From NCBI GenBank assembly GCA_021295815.1, contig JAGWBQ010000007.1, positions 1 to 64,000 on the forward strand: DNA of 64,000 bases, written 5' to 3'. The DNA is from Gemmatimonadota bacterium. GTDB taxonomy: Bacteria; Gemmatimonadota; Gemmatimonadetes; Longimicrobiales; Gaopeijiaceae. The notes under the pieces were generated by a model that was given only the letters and a program-made list of their open reading frames with translations, did no database searches and had not been told where the DNA came from. Positions 53,174-57,451 of the stretch are shown here, one piece after another. The stretch's first letter is position 1. Every line of letters starts with the position of its first letter. The position numbers and the translations under genes were made by a program.

Positions 53174-53291
53174 ACGATGAGCCGCACGACGTTTGACACG
53201 CATGACCGCCGGCCGAGCGAACCCCCTCCGGCGGAACCTCCCAGCAATCGACGGCGCGTCCGTCGGACAGCCCCATTTGGAGATCGCCCAC

Positions 53292-53957
53292 GTGGACAAC
53301 CAGTACAGGCTAATCACCCTCTTCGAGGACGGCGGGTGGATGATGTATCCGCTCGTCTTCTGCTCCCTGCTCGCAGTGGGAGTAATCGTGGGCAAGACGT
53401 GGACCCTCTGGCTCGCTCACCGTGACACCAGGAAGCTCCTTGCCTCGGTGAAGGACGCGACGCTCGAGGGAGACATCGACGGCGCTCTCGGCATCGCCGG
53501 CTCGACCAACGGTCCGGCGGCCGCCATCCTCCACACCGGACTGCGGCGCATCCGTACCGGGAGGGTCACCGAAGGCGAGATCGAACGTGCCGTCTCCACG
53601 ACCGGCGTCATCGAGCTCGGGTTTCTCGAGCGCGGCCTGGTGGTCTTGGCGACCGTCGCCAACGTCGCCCCCCTGATGGGTTTCCTAGGTACCGTGGCCG
53701 GAATGATCCTCGCTTTCGATTCCATCGCCGAGGCAGGGACGGTCGATCCCTCGCTGGTCGCCGGAGGTATCAAGGTAGCTCTGCTCACCACCGCCGCCGG
53801 CCTGACGATCGCGATCCCGGTCAACATCGGCTACAACTACTTCGTCACCCGGATCGATCGCCTCATCGTCGACATGGAGGAAGGAACCCAGCAAGTGATC
53901 AATCTGGCTTGGGATCTCGAGCGCGAGCACCGTCTCGAGATCGTTTCGGCAGCCTGA
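53292..53957 (+). CDS. exbB: ExbB/TolQ-family proton-channel protein
   Basis: 221 residues from the GTG at 53292, preceded by GGAG at 9 bases; a frame from ATG 53202 would add 30 residues without family likeness. Three membrane helices: 'MYPLVFCSLLAVGVIVGKTW', then 'TVANVAPLMGFLGTVAGMIL' (the conserved proton-pathway segment) and 'VALLTTAAGLTIAIPVNIGY'. It forms the stator pentamer that uses proton flow to energise TonB (or TolA). exbD, exbD and tonB follow, favouring ExbB over TolQ. Confidence 0.92.
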   Translation: MDNQYRLITLFEDGGWMMYPLVFCSLLAVGVIVGKTWTLWLAHRDTRKLLASVKDATLEGDIDGALGIAGSTNGPAAAILHTGLRRIRTGRVTEGEIERAVSTTGVIELGFLERGLVVLATVANVAPLMGFLGTVAGMILAFDSIAEAGTVDPSLVAGGIKVALLTTAAGLTIAIPVNIGYNYFVTRIDRLIVDMEEGTQQVINLAWDLEREHRLEIVSAA

Positions 53958-54151: not shown

Positions 54152-54577
54152 ATGTCCGTTCTCGGAAAGAAAAAGAAGAGAGCCGGCGAAGGCATCCCGA
54201 TGTCCTCCACCGCCGACATCGCCTTCCTGCTTCTCATCTTCTTCCTGGTCACCACCACCTTCCCCAAGGACAAGGGGCTTGCCCTGGTGCTTCCGGAAGC
54301 GAACGAGGAGGTCGAGGTCGCGCAGGAGAACGTCCTCCACCTGCTCGTTCAGGTCGACGGTACGGTCGAGGTCAAGCGCGGTGAGAGCGAATCCGTCCAG
54401 ACGGTGCGGGCGGCCGACGTCGAGGGCATCTGGAGGCAGGAATTCGCTTCCAACGACAGACTCATCGCTGCGGTCAAGACCCATCCCGAGGCCGAGTACG
54501 GCTATATGATGGACGTGCTCGACGCCCTTCAGTCGGCCAACGCGAGCCGCATCTCACTCCAGCTCCTGGAGGTCTGA
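54152..54577 (+). CDS. exbD: ExbD/TolR-family protein, first copy
   Basis: 141 residues. A basic N-terminus, then one membrane helix with the essential Asp22 ('STADIAFLLLIFFLVTTTF'), then a periplasmic domain. It partners with ExbB in the proton-driven motor. A 194-bp gap from exbB holds no convincing gene. It is followed by a second exbD after 1 base. Two different ExbD proteins next to one ExbB is common in Bacteroidota and Gemmatimonadota-type genomes, where both may enter one complex. Confidence 0.92.
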   Translation: MSVLGKKKKRAGEGIPMSSTADIAFLLLIFFLVTTTFPKDKGLALVLPEANEEVEVAQENVLHLLVQVDGTVEVKRGESESVQTVRAADVEGIWRQEFASNDRLIAAVKTHPEAEYGYMMDVLDALQSANASRISLQLLEV

Positions 54578-54578
54578 C

Positions 54579-55028
54579 ATGGCCATCAGCGGAGGAAAGT
54601 TCCAGAAGAGTTCGAAGGCATCCGAGGAGATTCCCTCCTCGTCTCTGGCAGACATCGCCTTCCTGCTCCTCATCTTCTTCATGGTCACCACGGTCTTCCA
54701 GCAGGACAAGGAACGGCCGATAGACTGGCCCGAGGCGGAAGCCGCCCAGAAGATGGACGAGAAGCAGAAGAACATCCTGAACATCTGGATGGAGCAGGAC
54801 GGCAAGGTCTATGTCAACGACGCCGAGCTCACCATGGATCAGGTCACGGCGGTGGTCACCCCGCTCTATGTCGCTTCCGATCAGAAGCTTCAGATCTCGA
54901 TCCGCGGTGATCGGGACGTCCCGTATCAGTACATGGACCAACTGCAGCAGGCGCTCATCCGGGGCGGTGTGCTGCGAGTGACCTTCGCCGCAGAACTCGA
55001 AACCAACATCCAGAGGGAACGCAGATGA
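54579..55028 (+). CDS. exbD: ExbD/TolR-family protein, second copy
   Basis: 149 residues with a good ribosome-binding site (GGAGG, 6 bases before the ATG). The membrane helix carries Asp25 ('SLADIAFLLLIFFMVTTVF'); the periplasmic domain ends 'MDQLQQALIRGGVL'. It differs clearly from the first ExbD outside the helix, so it is an old paralogue, not part of the recent duplication. The last 94 bases of this gene are the left edge of the 907-bp tandem duplication. Its stop overlaps the tonB ATG (ATGA). Confidence 0.92.
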   Translation: MAISGGKFQKSSKASEEIPSSSLADIAFLLLIFFMVTTVFQQDKERPIDWPEAEAAQKMDEKQKNILNIWMEQDGKVYVNDAELTMDQVTAVVTPLYVASDQKLQISIRGDRDVPYQYMDQLQQALIRGGVLRVTFAAELETNIQRERR

Positions 55029-55841
55029 CCGATCCAACCCAACCCGACCTCCGAGCGGACCCGATCGAGACCAGAAACGAAAGTTTCAAGCGCCGATCCG
55101 CGGAAGCGATCTGGGCCGGACTCATCCTCGCGGTGGCGCTGCACGTCGTGATCTTCGTCGTATCGCCCAACATCGAGGCCGAGGATGTCTCCTTCGAGGC
55201 CGACGAGATCGAAGTCCTCGATGTGCCGGACCAGATCGAGATCCCGCCGCCCCCGCAGGCCATAATGCGCCCGGCGGTGCCGGTCGTGTCGGCCACGGTG
55301 AGCGCCGAGATCACGATCACCGAGACCACGTTGGAGGCGAACCCGCCTGAGGACCTTCCACCGCCCCCCGTCATGGCGGTGGAGAGCAATCCGGGAGATC
55401 GCGGCGGCTTCTCGGTGTTCGAGGTCAACCCCGTGGTGCAAAACGTCCCCGAAATCACGCGGGCCTTGGAGCGGGAGTGGCCCCGCTTCCTGAAGGACGC
55501 CGGCCTGGGCGGCACGGCCGTGGTCCACTTCGAAATCGACGAGGAAGGGAAGGTCATCAGAGCCTATATCCACGAGAGCACCGGATTCGAGGCTCTCGAC
55601 GAGGCGGCTCTGAGGGTCGCGAACATTTATGAGTTCTCGCCGGCGCTGAACCGCGACAAGCCCGTCAAGGTCCGGGTGGCGATACCCGTCAGCTTCAAGG
55701 TCAACTAGAGCGGCGCGACTAGCTAGCCGACCGAGGTTCACAAGCCAGGAACATCCGGGTCCGACCGGCGACGGCCATGGCCGCTGCGGGGCGAACCCGA
55801 TCCCGCTACGTGTACGCCGAACTGCTTGCCCGAAATCTACC
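54935..55841 (+). repeat. Tandem duplication, copy 1 (907 bp)
   Basis: Spans the 3' end of the second exbD, all of the first tonB, and a copy of the first 22 codons of yggS. Every matching landmark lies exactly 907 bases from its counterpart in copy 2: tonB start 55025/55932, tonB stop 55708/56615, yggS-type ATG 55777/56684. No insertions or deletions have accumulated. The junction shows a GGA shared by exbD and yggS, the sign of microhomology-mediated duplication. Confidence 0.92.
55025..55708 (+). CDS. tonB: TonB, copy 1
   Basis: 227 residues. Cytoplasmic N-terminus of about 28 residues, one membrane helix (29-46) with a buried His40, a Pro/Glu-rich periplasmic linker ('IPPPPQAI' and 'LPPPPV'), and the C-terminal TonB domain (about 140-227: 'VVHFEIDEEGKV', 'FEALDEAALRVA', 'FSPALNRDKPVKVRVAIPV'). 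It transmits the ExbBD energy to outer-membrane receptors. ATGA overlap with exbD. The sister gene 907 bases downstream is about 78% identical by hand count of residues. Confidence 0.93.
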   Translation: MTDPTQPDLRADPIETRNESFKRRSAEAIWAGLILAVALHVVIFVVSPNIEAEDVSFEADEIEVLDVPDQIEIPPPPQAIMRPAVPVVSATVSAEITITETTLEANPPEDLPPPPVMAVESNPGDRGGFSVFEVNPVVQNVPEITRALEREWPRFLKDAGLGGTAVVHFEIDEEGKVIRAYIHESTGFEALDEAALRVANIYEFSPALNRDKPVKVRVAIPVSFKVN

Positions 55842-55935
55842 GGACCAACTGCAACAGGCGCTCATCCGGGGCGGTGTGCTGCGGGTGGTCTTCGCCGCGC
55901 AACGCGAAACCAAATTCCAGAGGGAACGGAGATGA
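55777..55935 (+). CDS. Chimeric ORF: YggS N-terminus fused to ExbD C-terminus
   Basis: 52 codons. Residues 1-22 match the start of YggS encoded at 56684 (shared 'TRSRYVYAELL'), and residues 23-52 match the last 30 of the second ExbD ('DQLQQALIRGGVL'). The two parts are joined in frame at the duplication junction (55842). The stop overlaps the ATG of the second tonB (ATGA), reproducing the exbD-tonB coupling. It has the yggS upstream region, so it may be translated and serve to deliver ribosomes to tonB copy 2. It is unlikely to have YggS or ExbD activity. Confidence 0.55.
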   Translation: MAAAGRTRSRYVYAELLARNLPDQLQQALIRGGVLRVVFAAQRETKFQRERR

Positions 55936-56748
55936 CCGACCCAACCCAACCCGACCTCCAAGCGGACCCGATCGAGACCAGAAACGACAGTTTCAAGCAC
56001 CGATCCCCGGAAATGATCTGGGCCGGACTCATCCTCGCGGTGGCGCTGCACGTCGTGCTCTTCGTCGCATCGCCCAATATCGAGGCCGAGGACGTCTCCT
56101 TCGAGGCCGACGAAATCGAAGTGCTCGACGTGCCGGACCAGATCGAGGTCCCGCCGCCCCCGCAGGCCATTTCGCACCCGGCGGTTCCGGTCGTGTCGAC
56201 CACGGTGAGCGCCGAGATCACGATCACCGAGACCACTTTCGAGGCGAACCCGTCAGCGTTGCTTTCGCCGCCCCCCTTCGCCGAGAGGGAGAACACTCCG
56301 GGCGGCCGCAGCATATTCTCGGTGGCCGAGGTCAACCCGGAGGTCCACAACCGCGACGAGGTCCAGGCAGCCTTGGAGCGGGAGTACCCCGCCTTCCTGA
56401 AGGACGCCGGCATAGGCGGCACGGTCGTGGTCCACTTCGAAATCGACGAGGAAGGGAAGGTCATTGGATCCTATGTCCATGATAGCTCCGATTACCGGGC
56501 TCTCGACGAGGCGGCTCTGAGGGTCGCGGCCGTCTACAGGTTCTCGCCGGCGCTGAACCGCGACAAACCCGTCAAGGTCCGAGTGGCGATACCCATCATC
56601 TTCAAGGTCAACTAGAGCGGCGCGGTTCGCTAGCCGACCGAAGTTCACAAGCCCAGGACATTCGGGTCTGACCGGCGACGGCCATGGCCGCTACGAGATG
56701 GACCCGATCCCGCTACGTGTACGCCGAACTGCTTGACCGAAATCTACC
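55842..56748 (+). repeat. Tandem duplication, copy 2 (907 bp)
   Basis: Direct continuation of copy 1. It contains a 94-base remnant of the exbD 3' end, the second tonB and the true start of yggS. Similarity is highest at the ends and in the first 320 bases of tonB, and lowest in the linker region of the gene. Confidence 0.92.
55932..56615 (+). CDS. TonB, copy 2 (paralogue by tandem duplication)
   Basis: 227 residues, same layout as copy 1: membrane helix 29-46 with His40, Pro-rich linker, TonB C-terminal domain. Of about 50 differing residues, half fall in positions 107-165, i.e. the end of the linker and the entry to the C-terminal domain, while the membrane helix and final strands are nearly unchanged. 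This suggests both use the same ExbBD but may contact different receptors; that is inference. The reading frame is intact and ATGA-coupled to the chimeric ORF. Confidence 0.92.
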   Translation: MTDPTQPDLQADPIETRNDSFKHRSPEMIWAGLILAVALHVVLFVASPNIEAEDVSFEADEIEVLDVPDQIEVPPPPQAISHPAVPVVSTTVSAEITITETTFEANPSALLSPPPFAERENTPGGRSIFSVAEVNPEVHNRDEVQAALEREYPAFLKDAGIGGTVVVHFEIDEEGKVIGSYVHDSSDYRALDEAALRVAAVYRFSPALNRDKPVKVRVAIPIIFKVN

Positions 56749-57451
56749 GGAGGTGCGTGATCGCATCGCCCGGGCGGAGCTGGACGCCGGAAGGTCTCCT
56801 AGGTCCGTCCGGCTGATCGCGGTTACCAAGGCCCATCCGGTCGAGGCTGTGGAGGCGGCGCTTGCGGCCGGATTGACCCACCTGGGCGAGAACCGAGTCG
56901 AGGAGCTGGAGGCGAAGACCCGGATCATCGGCCGCGAGCCGACCTGGCACCTCATCGGCCACGTTCAGAGCCGCAAGGCGAAGAGAGCGGCGGCGTGCGC
57001 CGACCTAGTTCACTCCGTCGACAATCTCAAGCTCGCTCGCAAGCTGAGTCGCGCGGTCGTCGAAGGTGCAAGGGGTTGCGAACCCGGTTCAGGGCTCGAC
57101 ATCCTCGTGCAGGTCAACGTCTCGGGAGAGGCGTCCAAGAGCGGGCTCGACGCGGACGGAGCCGTCGATACCCTGCTCGAGATGGCCGAACTGCCGGGCC
57201 TAAAGTTGGCGGGTCTGATGACGATGGCGCCGTTCGGCGCCGATGTCGGTACGCTTCGCCGTACCTTCGGCGGACTCCGACGAACGAGCGAAGAGACACG
57301 GAAGGCCACCTCGCGGGTAGGCCCTGAACTCTCGATGGGGATGACGGGCGATCTGGATGTCGCCATCGCGGAAGGGAGTACTATGGTGCGTATCGGAACT
57401 GCGCTCTTCGGGCCCAGACCGAGGCCCGGGGCAACTAATCTGGAGACCTGA
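56684..57451 (+). CDS. PLP homeostasis protein, YggS/PROSC family
   Basis: 255 residues. A single-domain alanine-racemase-like barrel that binds pyridoxal phosphate: Lys49 in 'LIAVTKAHP' is the expected PLP lysine, and 'HLGENRVEEL', 'WHLIGHVQSRKAK', 'LVQVNVSGEASKSGL', 'LMTMAPFG' and 'LSMGMTGDLDVAIAEGSTMV' are family landmarks. The first 20 residues extend beyond the usual start; a GTG at 56717 is possible. The first 65 bases of the gene are also present upstream in the duplicated unit. Confidence 0.94.
   Translation: MAATRWTRSRYVYAELLDRNLPEVRDRIARAELDAGRSPRSVRLIAVTKAHPVEAVEAALAAGLTHLGENRVEELEAKTRIIGREPTWHLIGHVQSRKAKRAAACADLVHSVDNLKLARKLSRAVVEGARGCEPGSGLDILVQVNVSGEASKSGLDADGAVDTLLEMAELPGLKLAGLMTMAPFGADVGTLRRTFGGLRRTSEETRKATSRVGPELSMGMTGDLDVAIAEGSTMVRIGTALFGPRPRPGATNLET

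Follow-up and report, generated by a model that had tools for sequence, protein, structure and literature searches.

TonB energises the uptake of nutrients across the outer membrane by coupling the proton-motive force to TonB-dependent receptors. Several TonB proteins per cell have been described in Helicobacter pylori, where specialisation of TonB1 and TonB2 for receptor or substrate lies partly in the C-terminal domain (PMC13367063), and for Vibrio anguillarum TonB2 and Serratia HasB, where it is likewise partly C-terminal (PMC3602595). In complexes with receptors, the TonB box of the receptor lies paired with TonB's third strand, with a contribution from helix residues (PMC3602595). The TonBs of these organisms are distant paralogues, and those of H. 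pylori have their own ExbB-ExbD partners (PMC13367063, PMC3602595). The locus analysed here also encodes more than one TonB, but in a different arrangement: two sister TonBs are encoded in a single cluster that also contains one ExbB gene and two ExbD genes. It is found in a stretch of 64,000 nucleotides from a Gemmatimonadota bacterium (contig JAGWBQ010000007.1 of assembly GCA_021295815.1), hereafter the window. The open-access literature searched yielded no description of a comparable tandem tonB pair, which is no proof of absence.

All genes of the cluster run in one direction on the forward strand, in the order exbB, exbD, exbD, tonB1, tonB2, yggS and a DivIVA gene, so that ExbB and two ExbD genes directly upstream link the tonB pair genetically to its putative motor. 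The ExbB/TolQ-type proton channel (53193-53957; PF01618, 2.1e-30) would be the motor subunit common to both TonBs. It is followed by the first exbD (54152-54577; PF02472, 1.6e-18) and an intact second exbD (54579-55028; PF02472, 5.8e-24), whose stop codon overlaps the tonB1 start (ATGA). Over the codons of the membrane helix (ADIAFLLLIFF), these neighbouring exbD genes share a 64-bp block with 86% identity (54212-54275 vs 54648-54711), whereas the two ExbD proteins are only about 36% identical overall; the block possibly reflects local conversion or strong constraint. The genes tonB1 (55025-55708; PF03544, 2.7e-14) and tonB2 (55932-56615; PF03544, 3.2e-17) each encode 227 amino acids in an intact frame, with both TonB_C matches above the cut-off, and an intact yggS (56684-57451; PLP-binding protein family PF01168, 4.9e-21) lies downstream. 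Each TonB has a single N-terminal membrane anchor (helix 17-46 in the model), a proline-rich periplasmic linker (PPPP and PPP runs in the alignment) and the C-terminal domain. In the AlphaFold2 model of TonB2, from which we took the strand and loop boundaries, this domain has a pLDDT of about 90 and matches the solved TonB C-terminal domains 6i97_D, 1u07 and 2gsk, with 6i97 and 2gsk being receptor complexes.

The tonB pair is contained in a direct tandem repeat of 907 bp per unit. An initial reading made from the sequence alone (the sequence-only reading) had claimed that all landmarks in the two copies are offset by exactly 907 bases with no indels, and this is borne out: at that offset, unit A (54935-55841) and unit B (55842-56748) align with 788/907 identical bases (86.9%), 119 differing sites and no gaps. 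Self-blastn of the window returned the same repeat (54935-55844 vs 55842-56751, 86.9%, no gaps), and outside both edges the identity at offset 907 drops at once to a background of about 25%. The conserved length had also been called striking; it is indeed conserved, but is only mildly striking. Unit A begins within the last part of the second exbD, of which it contains the last 94 bp or so, and continues through tonB1 into a truncated yggS, ending within its first codons. In unit B, the exbD remnant comes first, followed by tonB2, and the unit stops within the intact yggS.

The breakpoints share GGA at the exbD site (54935-54937), the junction (55842-55844) and the yggS site (56749-56751), with differing bases on either side, just as the sequence-only reading had described. 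Its proposal of a microhomology-mediated duplication holds for the tandem duplication, while microhomology as the mechanism of the break is possible: a 3-bp join is compatible with it but no proof, because a random junction has a probability of about 7% of sharing at least 3 bp. Spontaneous small tandem duplications from Salmonella chemostats similarly lie in direct order with short shared sequence at the join, although their verified junctions share at least 11 bp (PMC3411829), compared with only 3 bp visible now, near the chance level, in the window.

The junction also created a new open reading frame of 52 amino acids (55777-55935, from the translation), which fuses the N-terminus of YggS in frame to the C-terminus of ExbD. 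Its TGA overlaps the tonB2 ATG (ATGA), mirroring the overlap of the exbD stop with the tonB1 start, and tonB2 therefore retained a ribosome-binding region and possible translational coupling. Between the two tonB copies, we found no terminator-like site and no promoter-like site on the forward strand.

Among Gemmatimonadota relatives, exbB-exbD-exbD-tonB-yggS with one tonB is the usual arrangement, found at 99 loci (a count that includes some genomes fetched twice). In a FastTree phylogeny, the window TonBs are sister leaves with a support of 1.0 and branches of 0.17 each, on a long common stem (0.59), along which about a dozen family-conserved sites had already changed. These data agree with the earlier claim that the duplication produced a second tonB: relatives carry a single tonB between exbD and yggS, and the copies are sisters. 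With an adjacent direct repeat between unrelated flanks, single-copy relatives and mutually closest copies, the 907-bp tandem duplication that gave rise to the second tonB is confirmed as real and fairly recent. The dS between the tonB copies is 0.17, like that of congeneric species pairs elsewhere in the family, and the event is therefore recent on a within-genus scale. The pair is the window lineage's own and would have arisen after the split from every genus compared, with one genome representing the window's genus.

Two other lineages among the relatives carry separate, older tandem pairs, in which an intact second TonB frame similarly lies between the first tonB and yggS. In one of these (G056, locus L062, and G063, locus L063), the split between the copies predates the divergence of the two species, making this pair older than that of the window. 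The C-terminal domains of this pair remained under constraint (dN/dS 0.24 between the two G063 copies), unlike those of the window pair. In the other (G033, locus L016, and locus L112), the second TonB is a distant paralogue, unlike the window's sister copies. No exbD or yggS remnants were found by tblastn in either of these tandem pairs. The relatives suggest that tonB gains around this locus have been repeated or inherited. At four further loci (L064, L065, L066 and L169), an extra full TonB gene lies beyond yggS (exbD-tonB-yggS-tonB).

TonB1 and TonB2 differ at 50 of 227 amino acids (78% identity, matching the earlier estimate), with a dN of 0.146 and a dN/dS of 0.84, and substitutions are equal across the codon positions (31/30/33). 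Orthologous TonB pairs at a dS of 0.15-0.27 have a dN/dS of 0-0.31 and are 85-100% identical in protein sequence; at 78 near-invariant family sites, such pairs show 0-1 changes vs 13 in the window pair. Measured against ExbD and YggS, TonB has accelerated most in the window among 107 loci; the fifth and sixth places go to L063 and L062, two loci with tandem tonB pairs. Family-invariant residues have been lost from TonB1 (Y152W, S186T) as well as TonB2 (P112S, G187D, R146A), and derived residues are about as numerous in one copy as in the other, so that neither stands out as the unaltered original.

The substitutions are strongly clustered along the sequence (P<0.001, windowed variance). Identity is about 92% over codons 1-104, and 64-78% in 50-bp windows across 55350-55500. 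In codons 1-104, where the membrane anchor lies, dN amounts to roughly half the dS, a contrast that is not significant (P 0.06-0.13). In codons 105-190 (55337-55594 in tonB1, 56244-56501 in tonB2), spanning the linker, helix H1 ahead of the C-terminal domain and the first two strands of that domain (beta1-beta2), dN reaches about twice the level of the synonymous sites and the flanking DNA (Fisher P 0.0007-0.01). The excess of dN along tonB is thus regional and concentrated in the receptor-facing half, a feature absent from the sequence-only reading. The differences W152Y and R154A fall at the first helix, whereas the last predicted strand contains V222I and S223I. Mutation may account for some of the clustering, because synonymous divergence also rises somewhat over codons 105-150 (P 0.03). 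The amino acid differences concentrate at family-variable sites and avoid conserved ones more than expected by chance (P=0.005). These comparisons show accelerated protein change in the pair, chiefly in the linker and the C-terminal domain that would contact receptors.

The sequence-only reading took the two open frames to mean that selection has kept two versions of tonB. The frames are indeed open, but this is a weak inference by itself, as simulated neutral drift, given substitutions of the number and kind observed, introduces no stop codon into either frame in 11-20% of runs. The placement of amino acid differences at family-variable sites, together with the (non-significant) deficit of dN in codons 1-104, would be better evidence for constraint, and the regional excess of dN over the neutral level better evidence for selection, neither being conclusive. 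Selection for two versions, both functional, is plausible on these patterns, and we lean towards it. The main alternative, which we consider possible but rather unlikely, is that the duplicates are redundant and both were freed from constraint, drifting towards the loss of one with no division of labour. A dN/dS near 1 overall, the loss of family-invariant residues from both copies in similar measure and the survival of both frames in the stated share of neutral simulations are all compatible with such relaxed selection. However, dN in codons 105-190 lies above, not at, the neutral level, the differences avoid family-conserved sites beyond chance, dN is about half of dS in codons 1-104 (with the P values given above), and 907 bp have accumulated no frameshift or indel.

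The pair could also be an artefact, with two strain variants of one tonB region falsely joined as a tandem repeat, since the genome is a draft of 35 contigs (2.47 Mb, 96% complete). We consider this very improbable: the 119 differing sites are too many for confusion, the junction links exbD to yggS bases that are not homologous, the repeat lies on a contig of 288,809 bases, and the estimated contamination of the genome is 0.24%. Strain variants would moreover behave like orthologues, which at such dS have a dN/dS of at most 0.31, and the pair does not, so a chimeric assembly is strongly disfavoured. Hardly more credible is a mosaic history, in which the divergent middle segment of one copy came from a foreign or ectopic tonB by recombination (gene conversion). 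While the strong clustering of differences and the raised synonymous divergence in codons 105-150 are what such a history might leave, donor DNA for the divergent segment was sought elsewhere in the genome and not found. A segment from a functional homologue would also give a dS far above dN, whereas dN there is 0.39 and dS 0.35, and the length is unchanged although the linkers of relatives vary in length.

The genome encodes many potential partners for the two TonBs, with 27 plug-domain and 18 barrel matches to TonB-dependent receptors above the cut-off. These matches rule out that TonB had become dispensable through receptor loss. Among the TonB_C matches of the genome, only TonB1 and TonB2 have an anchor and linker beside exbBD. 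As the remaining matches are short proteins without exbBD context, except for one weak match at C13, TonB1 and TonB2 are likely the transducers for these receptors. The weak match at C13 lies near another MotA/ExbB gene and is possibly TolA. Two small TonB_C-only proteins lie in tandem at G000:C1 (L068, 2445-3509, minus strand), with a 275-nt block that is 73% identical at a spacing of 462 bp. Judged from its sequence, this pair results from another and earlier tandem duplication in this genome, here of a gene for a TonB C-terminal domain.

On balance, we favour two functional TonBs over the alternatives above, with the following history. One illegitimate event duplicated 907 bp in tandem, with a join of 3 bp, and so copied tonB along with the exbD end and the yggS start. 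Each copy is most likely expressed as a member of an exbB-exbD-exbD-tonB1-tonB2-yggS operon, in which tonB2 has inherited a ribosome-binding region of its own and is overlapped by the new yggS::exbD mini-ORF, a possible site of translational coupling. Through their little-changed N-terminal anchors, both TonBs would drive off the same ExbB-ExbD motor, while the periplasmic linker and the receptor-binding C-terminal domain have changed fast in each copy. It may be that the two no longer serve the 18-27 TonB-dependent receptors equally. The duplication, its breakpoints, the intact frames, the single-copy ancestry and the raised dN/dS with its location are shown by the data; dual expression, motor sharing and the division of receptors are what we infer from them. 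As a whole, this reading of one duplication leading to two functional TonBs on one ExbBD motor, with divergence at the receptor end, seems to us moderately probable.

A tonB duplication is in itself an ordinary event of a known kind, and the usefulness of this one comes from its age and the location of its changes, although the lineage is uncultured, which limits direct work. A more specific proposal is that positive selection, soon after the duplication, split the receptor repertoire between two TonBs on one ExbB-ExbD motor; we put this forward only tentatively and doubt it more than we believe it. If true, tandem tonB duplication here would be a way in which TonBs of this group have repeatedly become specialised (compare the acceleration ranks of L063 and L062). 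Sister TonBs that share a motor and differ mainly in their receptor-facing half would provide a natural test of which residues set receptor preference.
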